DNA from: Spirochaetales bacterium
GTDB lineage: Bacteria > Spirochaetota > Spirochaetia > SZUA-6 > JAFGRV01
Direction: 5' to 3'
Length of the DNA stretch: 40,918 nucleotides
NCBI GenBank assembly: GCA_016934975.1
Contig: JAFGRV010000052.1
Coordinates: forward strand, 1 to 40,918
Translations under genes and position numbers: made by a program
In this document: positions 3,016-40,918 of the stretch, one piece after another
How the letters are laid out: each line of letters opens with the position of its first letter
Position numbering within the stretch: position 1 is the first letter of the stretch
Notes under the pieces: model-generated
Database searches by the model: none
Told to the model about the DNA's origin: nothing
The model's input: only the letters and a program-made list of their open reading frames with translations

Positions 3016-3165
3016 TGTTTTGACCGGTATGTATTACATTAATCCTTATATAGTATGGATTATCTAAAATATATAAAATGGTCAAAACACTCAAGCTTTG
3101 ACCATTTTTCTGATGAATATGGGAATTTTACAAACCAACAATATATTGAAAATGAACCGGTCAAA
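3014..3165. repeat. Three-armed inverted repeat between convergent lipoprotein genes
   Basis: AGTGTTTTGACC at 3014-3025 is perfectly inverted as GGTCAAAACACT at 3080-3091. TTTGACCGGT at 3018-3027 is also inverted as ACCGGTCAAA at 3156-3165. A further TTTGACC lies at 3097-3103. The first arm overlaps the stop codon of the plus-strand gene. The arms could form alternative stems in the 3' UTR or bind a protein. Confidence 0.55.
3075..3109. terminator. Probable bidirectional terminator
   Basis: AAAATGGTCAAA (3075-3086) pairs with TTTGACCATTTT (3097-3108) around a 10-nt loop and is followed by T. The A-rich and T-rich ends suit termination from both sides. It lies between two convergent genes ending at 3015 and 3223. 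Confidence 0.6.
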
Positions 3166-3222
3166 GCACGAGTATGTTGTAAGCAGGCACGGGAGAGTTT
3201 AAATAATAGAAAGGTGAGGAAA

Positions 3223-3624
3223 TTATTGAGTCCGTGGAAGAATTGTTCCCTCCAAAGTCAGAATCACCTCGGGTTTATCCGGAATATTCGTTTTCATCTT
3301 AATTGCTTTCGTTACAGCTCCCCGGAAGCCTTCTGTTTCAATCTTTCCGTAAATTTTCCCACGTTTTCCGGGTTTCACAATTTTATCGTAGTATTTTACC
3401 ACGACGCATGAACAGGAAACATTCAGTTCGGTAATACGAAGGGGTGCTGTTCCCGTATTGCTAAAAAAAAAGGTAAATACAACCTCTTTCCCCTCTCGTA
3501 TCCTGCCGAATTTATATTTTTCTCCGTCCACATAAATTGACGGCTTTTTATTACTAAAACAACCGGAAACAAAGAGAAGGGGAAGTAACATCAATAGACC
3601 AAAGGTGATTATTTGTTTATTCAT
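3223..3624 (-). CDS. Small DUF1573-type lipoprotein
   Basis: The 133-residue product has a classic type-II signal peptide ending in the lipobox VSGC. One DUF1573 Ig-like domain follows: YKFGRIREGKEVVFTFFF, NTGTAPLRITELNVSCSC, and a final VILTLEG strand. ATG 3624 is chosen because GAAGGAA lies about 8 nt upstream; an in-frame TTG at 3639 lacks a site. It starts 19 nt after the stop of the 569-residue gene on the same strand, so the two are probably one operon. It is a single-domain relative of the convergent lipoprotein at 2266-3015. Function is unknown; an envelope role is inferred from the lipobox. Confidence 0.82.
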   Translation of the reverse strand: MNKQIITFGLLMLLPLLFVSGCFSNKKPSIYVDGEKYKFGRIREGKEVVFTFFFSNTGTAPLRITELNVSCSCVVVKYYDKIVKPGKRGKIYGKIETEGFRGAVTKAIKMKTNIPDKPEVILTLEGTILPRTQ

Positions 3625-3643
3625 CTTTCTTTCCTTCAATGGA

Positions 3644-5353
3644 TCAGGCTTTTTCCTCCAATTGATAGACTTCCTTTAAAAATTCCACAGCTTTATTAAG
3701 CTTGTTCAAAGAGGTCCTCCAGGATGTTATCACTTCATGATTTTCTCTGCCGCCGACACTCTTCATATTTGAAATCGTATCAAACTTACCCCCCACTTGT
3801 CCGTAAAGTACTCCGTCAAGGATATTTATCATCATTGTATAATTGGCGATCGTTTCCTCTATGATGTTTTTCGCTTTTCCGTTTATTTCCTTAAAAATTA
3901 AAGAGGCTTTCCGTTTTATCGGCTGAGTTTTTATCATTTCATTTTTTGCCGCTTCAATTTCAATACCGAGATCACCTTCCGGAGAAACAGATTTATCCAG
4001 GGAGTGGATTTTGTTATACGAAGTTGTCATTCCATTGTATGTGTCGGTAAAACTGGTTCTATTTTCTTTTTTATAGAAATTTCCGTTAATAAAAAGAGTT
4101 TTTAATGCCTTATTCATTCTGGGCATAAAAATCATTTCATAGAAATTTTTTATAAAAAGAAGGCTCAGGTAATATTTCAAGGTGTAAGGACTATATGCAA
4201 TCTCCGGTTTATAATATTCAAGTTTTCTAAAATCCTCCATTCCGAGAAAAGAGAGGGTCTGGCTGATAAATACCTTTATTTTCTTTTCTTTATAGAAGGA
4301 TTTGAAAATTTTATCAAATTGTTTTTCCCAGAATGTTTTAAAGAGAACAAACCAGTCTTCTCCGCCCTTTAATAATTCCGGCTCATAATTATAATTTTGT
4401 AAAATACACTTGAGAATATCCGGTAATGGGACTTTTTTATTGAACCTTCTCATGGCAGAAAAAGCCTCATCCGCTTCTCCCAGGTACTGGTCCAGTTTTG
4501 ATGTCAAATTGAAATGGGGATCACCGATTTTGTCGTAATTGGAAAAAAGAAAAACTGCTTTCAGGGCGTGTAAAGGCGGGGGAAAATGAGCACTCTGAAT
4601 AAGATCGCATAAACGCATCAATTTATTTTTTGCGATACTGAAGCTTAATGATCCCTTGCCGCCGAATTGATTCTTCCGGTAAAGTGAAGTTAATTCATCA
4701 AAATCGAAACTGCTCAACTGATAAAACCGTGTGAGTGCAAATACATATTGAGATATTTTTCTCCGGTCTTCCCTGGTAATATCTTCGATTATTTTATTGA
4801 ACCGCTTCTCCATTTCATTACGAATGTCCGCAACTTCCGCAAAATTGCCGGAATCATAGAGTGAATATGGCTCGGTCTCATCAATTATTCGTTGTTGTAT
4901 AATCTCCAGTTCCAGGCTGATTAAAAATGCCAAAAAATTGCTTCTATCCGTACCAAGGGCTATTTTAAGAGATTCCTTTAACGGTGAGAGTTGCAGGTTA
5001 AGATTTTCAAGTTCCGCTAACAATCCTCTCAGAATTTGTTTTCTTGAAAAATTTATGAGTCCCGGATATTTCGATCTTATTTTCGATGCTAATTTATTAA
5101 GGAGGTGTTGTTCGACAAGGACGCCCTTTCCCTTGCCGGTAAAGAGTGCGATAATGAAAATGATGATTCTTCGCAGTAAATTGAGATTTTGATACTGCTT
5201 TTCAAAATTAATTTCTTCACCGGGTTCTTCCCTCTCTTCATGAAGTGGTTCTTCGGAAACACCTTTTTGCCCGCGAATTTTATGAAGCAGATCATGTCTT
5301 TCCTTCGAACTTAAATCGAGTACTAATTTATCAAATACTGATTGTGTGTCCAT
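3644..5353 (-). CDS. Large protein of a probable spirochaete-specific family (DUF5312-like)
   Basis: This 569-residue protein has no signal peptide. One hydrophobic segment at about residues 60-75 (LLRRIIIFIIALFTGKGKG) could anchor it or be a buried helix. The rest is charged and helix-rich, with repeated Lys/Glu/Leu-rich stretches and no catalytic motif that I can name. From memory it resembles DUF5312, a family of unknown function found in treponemes and other spirochaetes; this was not tested. ATG 5353 is preceded only by a weak AGAGAA site. The gene is followed after 19 nt by the small DUF1573 lipoprotein, which suggests co-transcription and perhaps a shared envelope role. Confidence 0.72.
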   Translation of the reverse strand: MDTQSVFDKLVLDLSSKERHDLLHKIRGQKGVSEEPLHEEREEPGEEINFEKQYQNLNLLRRIIIFIIALFTGKGKGVLVEQHLLNKLASKIRSKYPGLINFSRKQILRGLLAELENLNLQLSPLKESLKIALGTDRSNFLAFLISLELEIIQQRIIDETEPYSLYDSGNFAEVADIRNEMEKRFNKIIEDITREDRRKISQYVFALTRFYQLSSFDFDELTSLYRKNQFGGKGSLSFSIAKNKLMRLCDLIQSAHFPPPLHALKAVFLFSNYDKIGDPHFNLTSKLDQYLGEADEAFSAMRRFNKKVPLPDILKCILQNYNYEPELLKGGEDWFVLFKTFWEKQFDKIFKSFYKEKKIKVFISQTLSFLGMEDFRKLEYYKPEIAYSPYTLKYYLSLLFIKNFYEMIFMPRMNKALKTLFINGNFYKKENRTSFTDTYNGMTTSYNKIHSLDKSVSPEGDLGIEIEAAKNEMIKTQPIKRKASLIFKEINGKAKNIIEETIANYTMMINILDGVLYGQVGGKFDTISNMKSVGGRENHEVITSWRTSLNKLNKAVEFLKEVYQLEEKA

Positions 5354-5363
5354 TTCTCTTTGT

Positions 5364-5392
5364 AGTTTAAATTTTTAATCCGATGTGGTCAA
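5364..5392 (-). promoter_or_regulatory. Candidate promoter for the 569-residue gene operon
   Basis: On the minus strand TTGACC (5387-5392) is followed by a 17-bp spacer and TAAACT (5364-5369). The -10 ends 10 nt before the ATG at 5353, so the 5' leader would be only a few bases long. Confidence 0.4.
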
Positions 5393-5461
5393 TGATGTTT
5401 TTCACCGGATTTATGTTTTGCCCCCTGTTAGCATTGATAATTTAAAAGTAAATTCTTTATA

Positions 5462-6580
5462 TTATGGCTGTTCCTTTCTGTCAAAGGAGGTTTCAATTTT
5501 TCTTTCTTCTTCGTATCGAAGTAATGCAAGCCGGACAAGCTCGGAAATAAGTTGAGTATAGGATATGTCGGTTAATTCCCATAATTGAGGATACATACTT
5601 ATTGGTGTGAATCCCGGAATAGTATTTATCTCATTTATAATTATTTCATTGTTTTCTTTAAGAAAAAAATCAACACGGGCCATTCCTTCGCAGCACAGCA
5701 CCTTGAAAGTACGGATAGCATATTCCTTAATTTTTTCTATTAACCCCGGAGAAAGTTTTGCCGGGAGCTCCAGGGTAACTCCATCCGAATCAATATATTT
5801 TGCTTTATATGTGTAAAACATATCATTAAGAATTATTTCTCCCGGGACAGAGGCGATGGGGTCATTGTTTCCTAACACCGAGCATTCAATCTCGCGGCCG
5901 AAAATCATTTCTTCGATAATAATTTTCGTATCATACGTAAAAGCTTCTCTCACCGCCTCTTTAAATTCTTGGGCATTTGTGACTTTATTTACACCCACAG
6001 ATGAACCGCAATTTACCGGTTTTATAAAAAAAACAGACCCGAGAATTCCCGCGGCTTTTTCATACGTAAGGGAATCTATTTCCGATTTATGAAGGCAAAG
6101 AAATCGTGCGATAGGGATATTACTCTCTTTTAAAAGGCGTTTCATCACATCTTTATCCATACCGATCGCCGATCCTGTCACCCCGGCCCCGACAAATGGC
6201 AGATTCATCAATTTAAGCAGGCCTTGTATCGTACCATCCTCTCCAAATGTTCCATGAAGAATCGGAAATACCACATCCAGGGGTATTGTTTCAGCCGGAT
6301 TATCTTCCAGACGGATATTCATCCCATCATCTCCCCCGGGGCGCAAGAAGAGAATGTTACCAAGATTTTTGATATCAATGGAATCCGGCTCCCCGGTATG
6401 CGTTTCGAAGAGGTCGGGAGGACACAGATGCCATATTCCCGTTTTATCAATCCCGATTAAGGTAATAGTGTGACGTGATGTGTCAACGGCTTCCACAATG
6501 TTTTTTGCAGATCGTAACGAGATTTCATGCTCTGCGGATTTCCCGCCGAATAATATACCTAAATTGATTTTTTTAATCAT
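5462..6580 (-). CDS. ddl: D-alanine--D-alanine ligase
   Basis: This cytoplasmic ATP-grasp enzyme joins two D-alanines for peptidoglycan precursors. The N-terminal domain carries GILFGGKSAEHEISLRSA. The central part has LHGTFGEDGTIQGLL and PFVGAGVTGSAIGMDKD. The ATP-grasp domain has FIKPVNCGSSVGV, EEMIFGREIECSVLG, GMARVDFFL and the metal/ligand loop INEINTIPGFTPISMYP. The 372-residue length matches the longer VanA-like Ddl group, and all key motifs are intact. The ATG at 6580 has GAGGAG 11 nt upstream and a promoter further up. The C-terminus adds a short charged tail (YEEERKIETSFDRKEQP). It is divergent from the ilv operon, with no obvious functional link. Confidence 0.96.
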   Translation of the reverse strand: MIKKINLGILFGGKSAEHEISLRSAKNIVEAVDTSRHTITLIGIDKTGIWHLCPPDLFETHTGEPDSIDIKNLGNILFLRPGGDDGMNIRLEDNPAETIPLDVVFPILHGTFGEDGTIQGLLKLMNLPFVGAGVTGSAIGMDKDVMKRLLKESNIPIARFLCLHKSEIDSLTYEKAAGILGSVFFIKPVNCGSSVGVNKVTNAQEFKEAVREAFTYDTKIIIEEMIFGREIECSVLGNNDPIASVPGEIILNDMFYTYKAKYIDSDGVTLELPAKLSPGLIEKIKEYAIRTFKVLCCEGMARVDFFLKENNEIIINEINTIPGFTPISMYPQLWELTDISYTQLISELVRLALLRYEEERKIETSFDRKEQP

Positions 6581-33540: not shown

Positions 33541-35592
33541 ATGAAAAAAAAGACTCCTATCTCGATTAATGTACGAAAATTGCTATTACTCATTATTTTT
33601 TTTATTTTAACCTCAACTATTCTTTATACCGAATCACCAATAATAAAAAGACTTACAGGGGTAAACTGGTTCGGCTTTGAAACCACTGATTATGTTCCGC
33701 ATGGGTTATGGGATCGGGATTATAAATCCATGCTTTTACAGATAAAAGACCTTGGATTTAATTGCGTACGAATTCCCTGGTCAAATGAAATGCTCAATAA
33801 ATTTCCTAAAAATATTACGATTAGTGAATGGATAAATGATCCTTATACCAATCGCCGGGGTCTTAATACGGATCTTTCCGGAAAATCCTCGCTTGAAGTA
33901 TTAGACGCTATTATTACTGAAGCAGGGAGATTAAATTTACGAATCATACTTGATTGTCATTCCCGCGGTGCAGGGGATTATATGGAAGAAACCCTCTGGT
34001 ATACGAACCAATGGCCTGAATCCCGATGGATATCCGACTGGGTATTTATCGCAGAGCGATATGTGTATAAACCTGCCGTGGTTGCTTTTGATTTAAATAA
34101 TGAACCCCATGGGGGTCTTTTTGGTTCGGGAATGAAACCCCCGGCGAGTTGGGGGTATGATGTACCTGGTTATGGAGTGACTAACTGGAAAGCAGCAGCA
34201 GAACGGTGTGCAGAGGCTATTCTCCGGGTCAATCCGGATATTATCATTATTATACAGGGCGTTCAGGAGTCGAGTGACGGAAGCAATTATTGGTGGGGTA
34301 GTAACCATAAAGATTTACCCGCGTACCCGGTAACGAGTATACCCGGGTCATCCTTAATGTATTCTGTTCATGAATATGGCCCCAGCGTTGCTTCACAAAC
34401 CTGGTTCGATGACCCCACATTTCCCAATAACCTGGAAGACCTCTGGCGAGACCGGTTCTGGTTTATTTATGAACAAAATTTAGCCGGATTGTATATCGGT
34501 GAAATGGGATTAAAGGAAGAAGAAGCATCAAACCCGTCAAGCATCGCTTACAAGTGGTTTACACGATGGCTCCAGTTCGCCGGGAATAAAGTCCATTGGA
34601 CATATTGGTGCTGGAATCCCAATTCAGGAGATACGGGAGGTATCCTCAAAGATGACTGGGTAAGTATCAACACAATAAAATACAATCTGATTAAGCCATA
34701 TCTTGAACCGCCAAACGGAGTAACTCCGTATCCGACGCAAACGCCCCATTTCGAACCGACCCCGTATCCGACACAGCCTCCATTGTTCCCCACACCATTT
34801 CCTACAATAAACATCAATACCCCATATCCGACAAATCCCCCGGAAGAAGGGGTGATTATCGATGCCAAGTTTGTCTTTTCGGAAGATGGATTCAATTATA
34901 TGGATGATCCTTTCCGGAATACCTTTAATCCTCAATATGCCTCGGGATTTTTTGATGCTTTCGGAGGAATCGATGATGGTGGTTTACGAGTCTATCTTGC
35001 GGGTCTTAATACTCATGGCGCAACATCTGCCGGATGGTCGGTTCCCTTTTATTCATCCGGGGGGTATTTTACTATTAATTTCGATTACAAAATGATTTTT
35101 GGCCGGGGTTATGAGAGTAATGAGTATGGAGAAGTAATCGTTTCGTTGGACGGAAATCTCCACATACTTAAAAGTATTTCCGGGATTGGAGATACGAGTG
35201 CTAATTATGATACCGGATGGGTTCATGAATCACTTTCAATAAATCTTGTACCGGGGTATCATACACTTATCATCGGTGTTTATAATAATATGGCTACGGA
35301 TGTGAATGAATTTATAAACTTTACTATTGATAATGTGCGGATAACAGACGAATCTCTTTTTCCCACATCCTATCCTCCGCCTCCCGATCTTATCGGAGAT
35401 GCCAATAATGATGGGCGTGTTAATATTCTCGATTCTCTGATTATTACCCAGTTTTATGTCGGGTTGAATCCGGGAAATTTTAATTTTATGTTAGCGGATG
35501 TTAATTGTAATAATGTTGTCGATGTTGTCGATGCTTTGCTTATCGCTCAATATTATGTTCGTCTCATCGATTTTTTTTGTAATGGGAATTAA
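33541..35592 (+). CDS. Secreted GH5 cellulase with C-terminal dockerin
   Basis: This is probably an endoglucanase. A signal peptide covers residues 1-30. The GH5 TIM barrel (about 35-390) begins LTGVNWFGFETTDYVPHGLW and contains LRIILDCHSRG, the acid/base Glu in DLNNEPHGG (E188), the VHEYGPSVASQTWF segment and the nucleophile Glu in IGEMG (E322). A PYPTQ-rich linker spans about 396-434. A beta-sandwich domain follows (about 437-605), likely carbohydrate-binding but not assignable by eye. A dockerin occupies 618-677 (GDANNDGRVNILDSLIITQF, DVNCNNVVDVVDALLIAQYY). Domain order is the reverse of the GH9 enzyme, whose dockerin is N-terminal. The leader has strong secondary structure, so expression may be switched. 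Confidence 0.93.
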   Translation: MKKKTPISINVRKLLLLIIFFILTSTILYTESPIIKRLTGVNWFGFETTDYVPHGLWDRDYKSMLLQIKDLGFNCVRIPWSNEMLNKFPKNITISEWINDPYTNRRGLNTDLSGKSSLEVLDAIITEAGRLNLRIILDCHSRGAGDYMEETLWYTNQWPESRWISDWVFIAERYVYKPAVVAFDLNNEPHGGLFGSGMKPPASWGYDVPGYGVTNWKAAAERCAEAILRVNPDIIIIIQGVQESSDGSNYWWGSNHKDLPAYPVTSIPGSSLMYSVHEYGPSVASQTWFDDPTFPNNLEDLWRDRFWFIYEQNLAGLYIGEMGLKEEEASNPSSIAYKWFTRWLQFAGNKVHWTYWCWNPNSGDTGGILKDDWVSINTIKYNLIKPYLEPPNGVTPYPTQTPHFEPTPYPTQPPLFPTPFPTININTPYPTNPPEEGVIIDAKFVFSEDGFNYMDDPFRNTFNPQYASGFFDAFGGIDDGGLRVYLAGLNTHGATSAGWSVPFYSSGGYFTINFDYKMIFGRGYESNEYGEVIVSLDGNLHILKSISGIGDTSANYDTGWVHESLSINLVPGYHTLIIGVYNNMATDVNEFINFTIDNVRITDESLFPTSYPPPPDLIGDANNDGRVNILDSLIITQFYVGLNPGNFNFMLADVNCNNVVDVVDALLIAQYYVRLIDFFCNGN

Positions 35593-36431: not shown

Positions 36432-37184
36432 ATGAACAAAGAGAATAAGATTATAAAAAGCCTGTGGATTGGTTCCTCACTCTCTCTTTTGGAACAGCTC
36501 TCGATAAAATCGTTTTTATCGAATGGTCATAGTGTACATCTGTATGTGTATGATAATATTAAAAACATTCCCGACGGAGTTATTGTCTGGGATGCCCATG
36601 ATGTCGTCAAAAAGGATGAAATTTTTCAGGGACAGCGGCGTCCTGGTCACTATATCGGTTATGAGGCTTTTTCGGATTACTTTCGTTATATACTTCTTTA
36701 TAACTATGGGGGATGGTGGTCGGACCTGGATGTCATCTGTCTTAAGCCCTTTGACTTTCAGGAGGAATATGTTTTCGCGTCTCATGTAAAACAACAGAAG
36801 AACTCTGAAGTGGTTCCTTCCGGGTGTATTATGAAACTCCCGTGTCAATCAAAGGAAGCCGGATATTGTATTGACGCCTGCCGGGAGATCCGGGATAAAA
36901 CATCAATCGTTTATTCCGCGATCGGACCCAGGCTTGTAAATAAAGTCATCGACCTTTATGACTTGAAGCGTTTTGTCAGGGAACCTGAAGTCTTCTGTCC
37001 GATAAATTGGTGGGAGATAAATAAACTTGTGCTGCCGAATGAAGATTTTCAGATTACCGGGAATATGTACGGAATTCATTGCTTTAATGTCAGATGGGGA
37101 GAGGATGGATTGAGTAAAAACAGTACGTACGATGAGTGCAGTGTTTTTGAACAATTAAAAGCATATTATCACGTGAATACGTGA
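36432..37184 (+). CDS. GT32-like glycosyltransferase
   Basis: The 250-residue protein resembles sugar transferases with a DXD motif (Gly_transf_sug / alpha-1,4-GlcNAc transferase group). The N-terminus SLWIGSSLSLLEQLSIKSFL matches the family's start. The donor-binding block is AFSDYFRYILLYNYGGWWSD followed by LDVICLKP, with the DxD Asp pair at SDLDV. It is cytoplasmic or membrane-associated, with no membrane helix. Donor and acceptor are unknown. No ribosome site precedes the ATG. It converges on the GT2-like gene with three bases between stops. Context with a second glycosyltransferase and two radical SAM genes suggests glycan or peptide-natural-product assembly. Confidence 0.85.
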   Translation: MNKENKIIKSLWIGSSLSLLEQLSIKSFLSNGHSVHLYVYDNIKNIPDGVIVWDAHDVVKKDEIFQGQRRPGHYIGYEAFSDYFRYILLYNYGGWWSDLDVICLKPFDFQEEYVFASHVKQQKNSEVVPSGCIMKLPCQSKEAGYCIDACREIRDKTSIVYSAIGPRLVNKVIDLYDLKRFVREPEVFCPINWWEINKLVLPNEDFQITGNMYGIHCFNVRWGEDGLSKNSTYDECSVFEQLKAYYHVNT

Positions 37185-37187
37185 TTT

Positions 37188-38708
37188 TTATTGAATTCTT
37201 TTTTCTATAAATCTGGTATAGGCCTCTGAAACCACGATAAATCCTTCCCTGATAAGGTCTGTGGTTGAATTGAATTTTTGTGCGTCAGACGAGTAGAAGC
37301 ATGGAGTTTTGTTGTTTTGCAGATATTCTTTGTATAAGTTATATTCGATCATTGAATAGTATGGATAGTTTTCTTCTTCTGTAACCTTCTGTACAAGATC
37401 AGGAAAGGAATGAATAAATTTATAATGCTTAAGGAGGCAGGTAACATCTGCAAGAAGTGCATTGTTGCAGAAGTGAGGATGGGTAAAAGGTTCGATCTTT
37501 TCATCAATAAATAAGAGGGGATGTTTAATGAGAAAAAAGGGCATTTTTGTATTGAGATTTTTTTTTCTCACTCCACCGGAAAAAAAAGGGATATCCGTAT
37601 GAGGAAGTATATTCAAAGCACACTCGGAAAAATGAAGGGGATATTCCCTCTTGTCGAGTTCGGATAAATCATAGTAGGGATATAGTTCCCGGAGATCACT
37701 CTCCTTATCACCTGTTATCGAGTCTAACGATAGATCGGAAAACATATCAAGCATATGGGCGACGACTGCGGTATAGTTATGTACATGTAAGTAGTCTAAA
37801 AAATGAGATAATGCCAGTATTTCGGAGTAAGGATAATCAAAGAGCTCATCTATATCAACACAAAGACACCATTTATTCCTGCAATTTTGATTGATAATTT
37901 CTCTTCGTATGTCACATTCATATTCCTTGAACGAAAGGGGGGTAGTATAAAGAGTGATATCCGGATATTCTTTTATCATAGCAAGGGTTTTATCGGTGGA
38001 TCCGTTATCAATAAAAATAATTTGTTTTACACCGAGTTGAGTATAATAATGTACGAACTGATGGATATAGGTCTCTCCGTTTTTAACCAGGCATATCACC
38101 GTGCACTCGTTGTTTTCCCGGGAATTGATAAGACCCTTTGAATGAAGGCGGATCTGTTTCTTTACATATGTTTCCCTTTCTCTCTTTTCGGAGTGAACTT
38201 TTTCTAAAATCCGGTTTACTTTTACATTTTTACTACCGTGTGATATGTGCTGTAAGAGAAAGAAACCATAGATTGAGTAAATATCCGTACTGTCGCGTAT
38301 CGGAAAGGTATATACATGTGGGAAATTATTTTCACGAAGCCTGGAGGCAATCTGTTCATCTACACAAAAAATAAAATCAGTACATTGTAAAGACGCCAAT
38401 AATGTATGTGACAGATCATTATCGGTTTTTATCCGGGGAAACTCCGGGATATGGACAACAACATTTATATGAGAAGAACAACCTATTTTTTTTCTAAAAA
38501 GCCCGGGATAGTGAAGAGTTTCCTCCGTCAGGGTGATATGCAAAATATCGCAGAGATTGCCGGGAAGAAGAGGCAGAATATACCGTATATGGCATGGGTG
38601 AATTGAGAAATAATCCGGTTTTTTTTCTCCCGGTCTGTTCCGGGGAATCCGGGGAGGGCCTAAGGAGTTTTCCGGATTAATCATGTATACATCGATTGAC
38701 TCTGACAT
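37188..38708 (-). CDS. GT2-like glycosyltransferase with unknown N-terminal domain
   Basis: The 506-residue protein has two parts. Residues about 1-195 begin MINPENSLGPPRIPRNRPGE and have no family that I recognise; their spacing of short strands and helices suggests a Rossmann-like domain, perhaps a second transferase domain. From about 200 a GT-A fold follows: CTVICLVKNGETYIHQFVHY, IIFIDNGSTDKTLAMIKEYP, and the metal site KWCLCVDIDELFDYP (DxD). This matches the Glyco_tranf_2_4/GT92-like group. It lies 60 nt downstream of the twitch radical SAM gene on the same strand, so co-transcription is likely. Substrates are unknown. Confidence 0.82.
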   Translation of the reverse strand: MSESIDVYMINPENSLGPPRIPRNRPGEKKPDYFSIHPCHIRYILPLLPGNLCDILHITLTEETLHYPGLFRKKIGCSSHINVVVHIPEFPRIKTDNDLSHTLLASLQCTDFIFCVDEQIASRLRENNFPHVYTFPIRDSTDIYSIYGFFLLQHISHGSKNVKVNRILEKVHSEKRERETYVKKQIRLHSKGLINSRENNECTVICLVKNGETYIHQFVHYYTQLGVKQIIFIDNGSTDKTLAMIKEYPDITLYTTPLSFKEYECDIRREIINQNCRNKWCLCVDIDELFDYPYSEILALSHFLDYLHVHNYTAVVAHMLDMFSDLSLDSITGDKESDLRELYPYYDLSELDKREYPLHFSECALNILPHTDIPFFSGGVRKKNLNTKMPFFLIKHPLLFIDEKIEPFTHPHFCNNALLADVTCLLKHYKFIHSFPDLVQKVTEEENYPYYSMIEYNLYKEYLQNNKTPCFYSSDAQKFNSTTDLIREGFIVVSEAYTRFIEKRIQ

Positions 38709-38768
38709 TCTCTCTTACCCTTCTTTCCATCCGTTTCTTTTGAAATGAATAAAAATAGCATTAATGTA

Positions 38769-39998
38769 TTATGCTTTGTTCCAGTATTTTTGTATCAGAT
38801 TAAATAATTCGGGGAAGGTTTTACTAAAATCTTCACTTCTGTTTTTATCCAGCCATTTATTAAACAGTATTCCCTTTCTAAATTGATCGTAATCCGAATC
38901 AATTTTCATAAGTTGGCGTGAAATCTGTTGGAAATCTTTATCCGGTAAATGGTTTTGCAGTTTGCGTAGAATATTTTTTTTTGTAGTTTCCGGCAGGATC
39001 CATGGAGCTAAATAACTGGGTGTATATACAAAATTTAAAAACATCTTTTTAAGATTCCATGCGGACATAAAGGAATAGAGTTCATCAATATAATAGACAT
39101 TCATCCAGGTTATTGAAGGCTGAATCTCCAGAGTCATGTTTTTAAGATGTGCGTTTTGTAAGGTTTTCATATTTTTAATCACATCAGCCCATTTGAGGCC
39201 ATGCCTGAGGTACTCGCATCGTTTTCCCACTGCATCAAGGGAAAGACCTAAACTGACATATTTAAAGTGTGACCAGAAATCAGGAGCATTATCGGGGATG
39301 TATGACATATTAATGTTATAACCGAGACAAATATGTGAGGCAATATTGTTGTCTATTAAAAATTGCAGGAATTCCCAATGCTTAAGATTAAGCATCGCTT
39401 CCCCCCCGGTGATATAGATACTCCGCAACTCTTTGGCGATCTGAAGAATCTGTTTCCGGAACGAAGGTTTTTCTACTACGGATGAGGTGAATGATGGGAA
39501 ATCATGAACAAAAGGAAGGGCGCATTTTAGTTGTGCATATTCATCAGCCCATTTGCTGCTGTAGTGTGGGCCGCACATTCTGCATGTGTGATTGCAGAGG
39601 GTGTTGAACCTGATATCCAGACCAAGAGGAGTTGTTTTTACCCTTCCATTATTATCGGTTATCTCCCGTAATTTTTCTTCTTTTAGCGGATAGAATTGTA
39701 AGGATGTAAGGCGTCTGCTTGTAATCCCCTGGTGTTCTTCATTAATGCACTCTGCGCATGAAGGAGGAATAGTTCCATTAAGAAAATTGTTTCGTATAGT
39801 GTTATAAGAATCGGAATTAATGAGAGAGAGGAGAGATGTTTCTTTAAGGGTAAGATAATTCCTGGTCCCGGAGTTTATGTTGTAAGCAAGATTCAGCGGT
39901 CCTTTAAAATCTTCAAAACAGCACAGCCGTGTAGAGCCGTCCGCGTAAATACTGAGATTAACCCATGGCATCGGACAAAGTGTTATGTGGGGTGTCAT
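38769..39998 (-). CDS. Twitch-domain radical SAM protein
   Basis: The 409-residue enzyme has a split layout. An N-terminal SPASM/twitch-like cluster site is suggested by CPMPWVNLSIYADGSTRLCC (residues 8-27) and PPSCAECINEE (near 80). The radical SAM core then follows with CNHTCRMC near residue 135, binding the [4Fe-4S] cluster and SAM, and SIYITGGEAML for the GGE motif. The C-terminal region is helical. Such proteins modify peptides or glycans; the substrate is unknown. Its start lies 29 nt downstream of the CXXX-maturase-like gene, and the glycosyltransferase follows 60 nt later. The three form one minus-strand operon. Confidence 0.87.
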   Translation of the reverse strand: MTPHITLCPMPWVNLSIYADGSTRLCCFEDFKGPLNLAYNINSGTRNYLTLKETSLLSLINSDSYNTIRNNFLNGTIPPSCAECINEEHQGITSRRLTSLQFYPLKEEKLREITDNNGRVKTTPLGLDIRFNTLCNHTCRMCGPHYSSKWADEYAQLKCALPFVHDFPSFTSSVVEKPSFRKQILQIAKELRSIYITGGEAMLNLKHWEFLQFLIDNNIASHICLGYNINMSYIPDNAPDFWSHFKYVSLGLSLDAVGKRCEYLRHGLKWADVIKNMKTLQNAHLKNMTLEIQPSITWMNVYYIDELYSFMSAWNLKKMFLNFVYTPSYLAPWILPETTKKNILRKLQNHLPDKDFQQISRQLMKIDSDYDQFRKGILFNKWLDKNRSEDFSKTFPELFNLIQKYWNKA

Positions 39999-40027
39999 TC
40001 CCTGCTTATTCCTTTATTTCCCTGTCT

Positions 40028-40918
40028 TTATTTTTCATCCCGTATGGTAAATTCTTTCATGAGTTCCTGCTGGGTTTTAAAAAGTTCGATAAGCATTTCT
40101 TTTACAGAGAGGTTTTTAAACTCGCTTAAAGACATAATTTTCCGGGCAGGATAGAGGGTTTTTTTCGATTGTATGACCGGGATTTGTTGTGAATGATTCA
40201 TTCCGGGCGATTTATTTTCATTCATAGTCTTTACCGGGGCGGTTTTTTCAGGGATGGATTTTGTGTTGAGTTTCGGCAGGTTTGTTTCCGGATTTTTTAC
40301 CGTGGGAGAGGAATTTGTATTTTTCTGCTGTCCGATAATAACTTCAAATGGATCAAGGTAGTTTATTTCAGGAATCGGCGGTATATGGTTAAGGTCTTTG
40401 AATTCCTTTATTTTATGCAAGGTTGATAGTATCTGTCTGCTTGCGTTTCGTTCGTGGTGAGAAAGAACGCATTGCTGATATGAAGGAGTATTCAGCTGCA
40501 TCGTCACCTTATTATTTAAGTAATAACACCGTTTGCACTGGTAGCAATCGCAGATGGAGCAGATCGGGGCTTCTTCGAGAGAGAGCATCGGTACGTTATG
40601 GACAATACGGTCATGCTCCGAAAATTCAATAGTATTGTTCTCGTCTTCGGAATAAAAGCCCGGACATAAATAGTATTTTCCATTCGGTCCCACAGTAATA
40701 TGATCGATTCCGGCATTACAATTTTTCATACTGCTTAAAAGAATTCTATCGGACAGGAAATTACATTCATACGCATTCCCTTTTTTGTATTCGGAAACGA
40801 GTATTTCCGCGATTTTTTCTACCTGAACTTTATACAGATCAATATCTTTTTCTTCATAGGTCGGAATATCCATGAGATGAAGATTGATGCGTTTAAATTT
40901 TCCTCTTAATTTTTTAAA
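40028..40918 (-). CDS. CXXX-repeat peptide maturase-like radical SAM protein (C-terminal part, cut by window edge)
   Basis: The frame stays open from the ATG at 40873 to the window edge (FKKLRGKFKRINLHL precedes it), so the true start and the radical SAM core lie outside. What is seen is a SPASM domain: KNCNAGIDHITVGPNGKYYL, CPGFY, then CSICDCYQCKRCYYLNNKVT and TPSYQQCVLSHHERNASRQI. From memory this matches maturases of CXXX-repeat target peptides (a RiPP family), with the order C-x(n)-CP-x(n)-C-x2-C-x4-C-x2-C-x(n)-C. A Pro/Lys/Asn-rich linker (about 195-255) and a C-terminal helix (MSLSEFKNLSVKEMLIELFK) follow. It is the first visible gene of the minus-strand operon with the twitch protein and glycosyltransferase. 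Confidence 0.78.
   Translation of the reverse strand, partial: FKKLRGKFKRINLHLMDIPTYEEKDIDLYKVQVEKIAEILVSEYKKGNAYECNFLSDRILLSSMKNCNAGIDHITVGPNGKYYLCPGFYSEDENNTIEFSEHDRIVHNVPMLSLEEAPICSICDCYQCKRCYYLNNKVTMQLNTPSYQQCVLSHHERNASRQILSTLHKIKEFKDLNHIPPIPEINYLDPFEVIIGQQKNTNSSPTVKNPETNLPKLNTKSIPEKTAPVKTMNENKSPGMNHSQQIPVIQSKKTLYPARKIMSLSEFKNLSVKEMLIELFKTQQELMKEFTIRDEK

Follow-up and report, generated by a model that had tools for sequence, protein, structure and literature searches.

A probable second CXXX-repeat maturation locus beside twitch radical SAM and glycosyltransferase genes in a Spirochaetales genome

Do radical S-adenosylmethionine (SAM) genes that lie beside glycosyltransferase genes in a spirochaete encode the machinery for a glycosylated, radical-modified peptide? 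The question is raised by four genes at the right end of contig C557 of the Spirochaetales metagenome-assembled genome (MAG) G000 (665 contigs, 6.8 Mb, 87% complete): a truncated CXXX-type maturase gene, a twitch radical SAM gene, and glycosyltransferase genes of the GT2 and GT32-like families. The window analyzed here is that entire contig, 40,918 bases in length, with no sequence beyond position 40918. A first-pass annotation of this DNA proposed a radical SAM glycopeptide cluster. The proposal stands in that this spirochaete has a CXXX system resembling those for ribosomally synthesized and post-translationally modified peptides (RiPPs), with precursors that match the NCBIfam model TIGR04117, but its glycosylation part is so far unsupported. 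We consider it fairly likely that the genome has a second, divergent locus for CXXX-repeat maturation, of which the window holds the downstream part at its right end, with a putative TIGR04119 partner protein and with precursors encoded in trans.

The truncated maturase gene

All four genes are real, as judged by open reading frame (ORF) positions and by family profile scores that greatly exceed chance, and the coordinates, strands and spacings given to them in the first-pass annotation are correct. The outermost gene (40028–40918, minus strand) encodes the C-terminal 296 residues of a protein that matches TIGR04119 (CXXX_matur) over the whole profile except positions 1–18. Its score of 195.7 bits is above the equivalog-domain cut-off of 150, and the resemblance to CXXX maturases noted earlier is thus confirmed by hidden Markov model (HMM) search. 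The window is the whole contig and the open frame runs off its edge, so the truncation reflects the contig end and not a frameshift, and about 127 N-terminal residues fall beyond that end. The seven SPASM cysteines of the fragment (C67, C85, C120, C123, C128, C131 and C150) align with invariant cysteines of its relatives.

When the N-terminal half of the C266 maturase (see below) served as a protein query, no other G000 contig with the missing half was found. The ends of contigs C300, C513, C171, C590 and C28 were tried as continuations of the window, and none overlaps the window end. C300 and C513 were also rejected as direct neighbors: C300 runs into the start of an apparent B12-type radical SAM gene, and on C513 the GT2 gene is followed by the contig end. 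The frame on C300 begins after a TIGR04115 gene (L016:12580–12680), and C399 (L018:2–2889) begins inside a radical SAM gene, behind which lies a PapB-like radical SAM/SPASM gene with 150 bits against a cut-off of 340; C300 and C399 may themselves be neighbors.

The CXXX-repeat system elsewhere in the genome

The CXXX-repeat system, so far defined by HMM annotation in NCBIfam, consists of the TIGR04115 maturase, the TIGR04116 associated protein, the TIGR04117 and TIGR04118 targets and TIGR04119. The genome fits this description, with TIGR04119 in the window and TIGR04115, TIGR04116 and TIGR04117-type precursors over cut-off elsewhere. On contig C266 two TIGR04115 genes, a full-length TIGR04119 gene and the genes for TIGR04116, TatA and TatC follow one another consecutively, and a sister species of the same genus (G017) has the same order from one TIGR04115 gene onward. 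Four TIGR04115 proteins in G000 exceed the cut-off, two on C266 and the others on C513 and C300. TIGR04119 itself is rare in the phylum, being found at E ≤ 1e-20 in 2 of 393 sampled Spirochaetota genomes. Three Bacteroidales loci (L023–L025) have precursor, TIGR04115, TIGR04119 and TIGR04116 genes together, with TatA and TatC in L024 and TatC in L025. The window copy differs from the NCBIfam arrangement in that it precedes twitch radical SAM and GT2 genes rather than TIGR04116 and tat genes.

No CXXX array lies anywhere in the window, in agreement with the earlier statement that no Cxxx-repeat precursor is visible there. Nine genes with a twin-arginine leader were found in G000, and eight of these carry CXXX arrays, of 13 to 68 CXXXC steps where counted; they lie on C300 (adjoining TIGR04115), C171, C470, C480, C108 (three in a row) and C590. 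Those on C300, C590, C470 and C480 pass the precursor model TIGR04117. The ninth, on C299, has lost its array. A precursor at the edge of the window, where the first-pass annotation had expected one, is not required, since seven other contigs between them carry precursor genes. This is a second departure from the NCBIfam system, in that most G000 precursor genes do not lie with those of the maturases. All nine leaders are of the RRxF type, with RRxF(I/L) ahead of a hydrophobic stretch, and in most the leader closes with a lipobox-like x-[GA]-C (LTGC, FGGC); from such leaders the precursors are probably exported as lipoproteins by the twin-arginine translocation (Tat) pathway. Ser and Thr are abundant at the X positions of the arrays.

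TIGR04119 as a putative partner of TIGR04115

The gene had been described as encoding a truncated SPASM radical SAM protein. It is truncated and has the full set of SPASM cysteines, but the CX3CX2C motif is absent from the family in full-length relatives. We read this absence from relatives, as the N-terminal half of the window copy lies past the contig end: the motif is lacking in the TIGR04119 part of all seven, namely five free-standing full-length proteins (from C266, the sister species and three Bacteroidales MAGs) and two fused ones, while the SPASM cysteines are kept. Thus, the window maturase is probably not itself a radical SAM enzyme. The two fusions are natural. In the spirochaete G406 a single 704-residue ORF (L109:14046–16160) contains TIGR04115 and then TIGR04119 (483 and 220 bits), and WP_012797095.1 of Anaerococcus prevotii plasmid pAPRE01 (L113:204–2390; 728 residues) has the same order (487 and 279 bits). 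Because relatives lack CX3CX2C and fusions to TIGR04115 occur in two species, TIGR04119 looks like a pseudo-radical-SAM/SPASM partner of TIGR04115, although how the partnership works is something we infer. ATP-binding cassette (ABC) transporter genes lie near both fusions.

Pseudo-radical-SAM partners (IPR026418) have been hypothesized for RiPP clusters of Bacteroidales, where they lie beside a true radical SAM gene and a precursor gene (PMC10352776). TIGR04119 resembles them in being related to radical SAM enzymes and in having its gene next to those for a true radical SAM enzyme and a precursor, but we take it to be a different family; it retains all the SPASM cysteines and occurs fused to its radical SAM enzyme. 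The thioether-forming radical SAM/SPASM enzymes PapB and CteB, which are ranthipeptide maturases, offer a second comparison. In structure comparisons the only PDB matches at E < 0.001 to a model of the sister-species TIGR04119 protein are 5WHY and 5WGG (3e-8 and 6e-8), chains of the radical SAM/SPASM enzyme CteB. For the TIGR04115 enzymes of G000 the PapB model NF047865 ranks second among family models, but at 178.9 to 212.6 bits these enzymes fall short of its cut-off of 340. Further differences are that TIGR04119 relatives lack CX3CX2C and that the precursors are long arrays with Tat leaders.

We propose that a TIGR04119 subunit would pair with TIGR04115, the catalytic radical SAM/SPASM enzyme, and that in the cytoplasm the two, aided by the small TIGR04116 protein, would modify the cysteines of long CXXX precursors. 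The related enzymes PapB and CteB suggest by analogy that the likeliest outcome would be serial thioether cross-links. Once modified, the protein would leave the cell by the Tat pathway and would then probably be a lipoprotein in this genus, as most leaders end in the lipobox-like sequence after RRxF(I/L)K. The precursors and most of the maturases would be supplied in trans to the window. G000 is a useful test case for such a scheme, with eight Tat-leader arrays, four radical SAM enzymes of the catalytic type alongside two putative pseudo-radical-SAM partners and, at one locus, tat genes; it allows one to ask whether radical-modified proteins use Tat and what a SPASM protein without a SAM-binding motif does.

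Several points weigh against a second maturation locus. The contig ends inside the maturase gene, and no TIGR04115, TIGR04116 or precursor gene is seen beside this copy. The best fold match of TIGR04119, to CteB, comes from a low-confidence AlphaFold model built on five sequences [mean predicted local distance difference test (pLDDT) 55, template modeling (TM) score 0.38]. No other genome examined ties the twitch radical SAM protein or the window GT2 to CXXX substrates. In the literature searched we found no paper on TIGR04115, TIGR04116, TIGR04119 or a CXXX-repeat product, the matches for Cys-Xaa-Xaa-Xaa being unrelated, and we know of no paper that describes the chemistry of the CXXX maturase family.

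Lastly, the window maturase is divergent and could be decaying. Its core is 53% identical to that of the C266 copy, 52% to that of the sister species and 51% to that of L023, it sits on a long branch, and several positions otherwise conserved among its relatives are changed. That it is a functionless duplicate, with the truncation in the assembly counted in favor, nevertheless seems to us very improbable: it retains all seven SPASM cysteines and the C-terminal helix, its frame stays open for 296 codons, and the TIGR04119 score is well over the cut-off. We therefore regard the window locus as an incomplete, divergent example of the already known CXXX kind, with possible tailoring genes.

Twitch radical SAM and glycosyltransferase genes

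The twitch radical SAM gene (38769–39998, minus strand) begins 29 nucleotides downstream of the maturase fragment. Its earlier identification holds: the N-terminal-twitch family NF033640 matches over 395 of 398 positions at 325 bits (cut-off 170), and PF04055 and PF13186 also score above cut-off. The CX3CX2C motif is intact (CNHTCRMC, residues 135–142) and a GGE is present at 198–200, and with CX3CX2C kept the protein should be a competent radical SAM enzyme. We know of no function for the NF033640 family. The protein is like other NF033640 members in its near-full-length match and intact motif; they differ in context, the window gene being placed between a CXXX maturase gene and a GT2 gene.

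The GT2 gene (37188–38708, minus strand) follows after a gap of 60 nucleotides. Its product matches PF13704 (73.2 bits, cut-off 27.5) at residues 209–299, with a DID at 285, and the N-terminal ~200 residues have no family assignment, which bears out the description of a GT2-like enzyme with an unassigned N-terminal domain. No convincing PDB relative was found for the N-terminal region, and a single-sequence structure model of the protein was discarded (pLDDT 36). A purine-rich, Shine-Dalgarno-like sequence precedes the starts of both the twitch and the GT2 genes. The common orientation and small gaps suggest that these two and the maturase fragment are probably co-transcribed. The GT32-like gene (36432–37184, plus strand; PF04488, 37 bits, cut-off 23; DLD at 98) converges on the GT2 gene, as had been reported, with 3 nucleotides between them. 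It lies outside the operon because it is on the opposite strand and a stem-loop (37168–37185) separates the two stop codons, and it is probably a separate transcription unit that is not part of the CXXX system.

Is glycosylation linked to the CXXX system? We compared the window by tblastn with seven other TIGR04119 loci (C266, the sister species, L023, L024, L025, G406 and A. prevotii), and none carries homologs of the twitch radical SAM, GT2 or GT32-like genes. The four genes, whose joint presence in relatives had been proposed as a test of the cluster, are therefore not seen together at any of these loci, which in this sample speaks against the cluster, and a glycosylated product is so far unsupported beyond the operon-like gene order of the window. 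The sole further hint is an independent pair on C513 of G000 (L017:129–3740), where a radical SAM/SPASM gene, a TIGR04115 gene and, 12 nucleotides on, a GT2 gene lie on one strand; this GT2 and that of the window are not closely related. To find a GT2 gene downstream of a CXXX maturase gene twice in G000 is suggestive.

A glycosylated, radical-modified peptide would arise if TIGR04119 and TIGR04115 acted first, the twitch enzyme then modified the product, and GT2 (perhaps with GT32) placed sugars on Ser/Thr or Cys. The gene order, the C513 pair and the Ser/Thr-rich X positions of the arrays agree with such a pathway, but the sister species, which lacks a close relative of the twitch protein, has Ser/Thr-rich arrays too, the GT32-like gene runs in the other direction, and there is the lack of co-occurrence just described. 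The proximity of GT2 to a Cys-rich-peptide system also recalls the glycocins, RiPPs glycosylated by SunS-type S-glycosyltransferases, but the window GT2 has no match to the SunS model TIGR04195 at E ≤ 1, and the C513 GT2 reaches 18 bits where the cut-off is 350, so neither usefully matches. On balance we think this pathway rather unlikely. A third possible link between CXXX proteins and glycans was set aside. On C299 (L095:5574–8699) the ninth leader gene lies upstream of genes for a KdsB-like cytidylyltransferase and a radical SAM/SPASM protein, but the array is lost and the radical SAM protein is partly similar to spirochaetal TIGR04321.

The distribution of the twitch and GT2 proteins bears on another explanation, that they (perhaps with GT32) form a separate, horizontally acquired glycan module that happens to lie behind an ordinary CXXX maturase gene whose product is not glycosylated. 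NF033640 is present at E ≤ 1e-25 in 1 of the 393 sampled Spirochaetota genomes, G000 alone, and the sister species has the CXXX system with no NF033640 twitch protein. Relatives of the twitch protein in phages amount to two weak Vibrio phage matches of 21% identity, and none was found in plasmids or in IMG/VR. Plasmid relatives of the window GT2 (tblastn) align only over residues ~172–504 and are generic family 2 proteins. The near-absence of NF033640 from the sampled phylum, its lack in the sister species, the generic nature of the GT2 relatives and the absence of homologs from all seven compared loci favor a separate module, while the short gaps, common strand and ribosome-binding-like sequences suggest one unit with the maturase gene, and the C513 pair again places a GT2 gene close behind TIGR04115. 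We would put the chances of a separate module at a little short of even.

Within the preferred reading of the window as a second CXXX-repeat locus, we favor, though we hold it weakly, a role in which the twitch enzyme and GT2 would add further modifications to the product of the same system. Their full tailoring of Tat-exported, lipid-anchored CXXX proteins into a heavily cross-linked, glycosylated surface protein strikes us as decidedly doubtful. If the two do share the CXXX substrate, the system would join radical modification to glycosylation.

Other CXXX arrays and neighboring features

CXXX arrays also occur in phage-like settings, in tail-module proteins near TIGR04115-like enzymes. In the sister species a prophage-like segment (L089:5174–8357, G017 contig C112) encodes a protein resembling those of tail modules (phrog_3285, minor tail), whose C-terminal part is an array of 48 CXXXC, directly followed by a TIGR04115-like enzyme (233 bits, below the cut-off of 350); the tail protein is possibly a radical-modified one. 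Among IMG/VR contigs, L192 has a CXXX-array protein near a TIGR04115 enzyme that exceeds this cut-off at 444 bits (3142–3978 and 5160–6452), with tail fiber and holin genes nearby, and L157:5656–8300 has a tail-like CXXX protein beside a TIGR04115-like enzyme just below it (341 bits). A PapB-like enzyme (95 bits, below cut-off) lies beside a short CXXX array at L189:1315–2758. On the viral contigs L151 (1547–2574) and L140 (5712–6815) CXXX-array proteins adjoin virion structural genes, and a radical SAM fragment with no family assignment lies at the edge of L151.

The window also encodes glycoside hydrolases of families GH9 and GH5 that bear type I dockerin repeats (123–2090 and 33541–35592), and C266 encodes a serpin-like protein with similar dockerin-like repeats (L015:16907–18400). 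Together, the dockerin-bearing hydrolases and the serpin-like protein are a cellulosome-like feature in a spirochaete.

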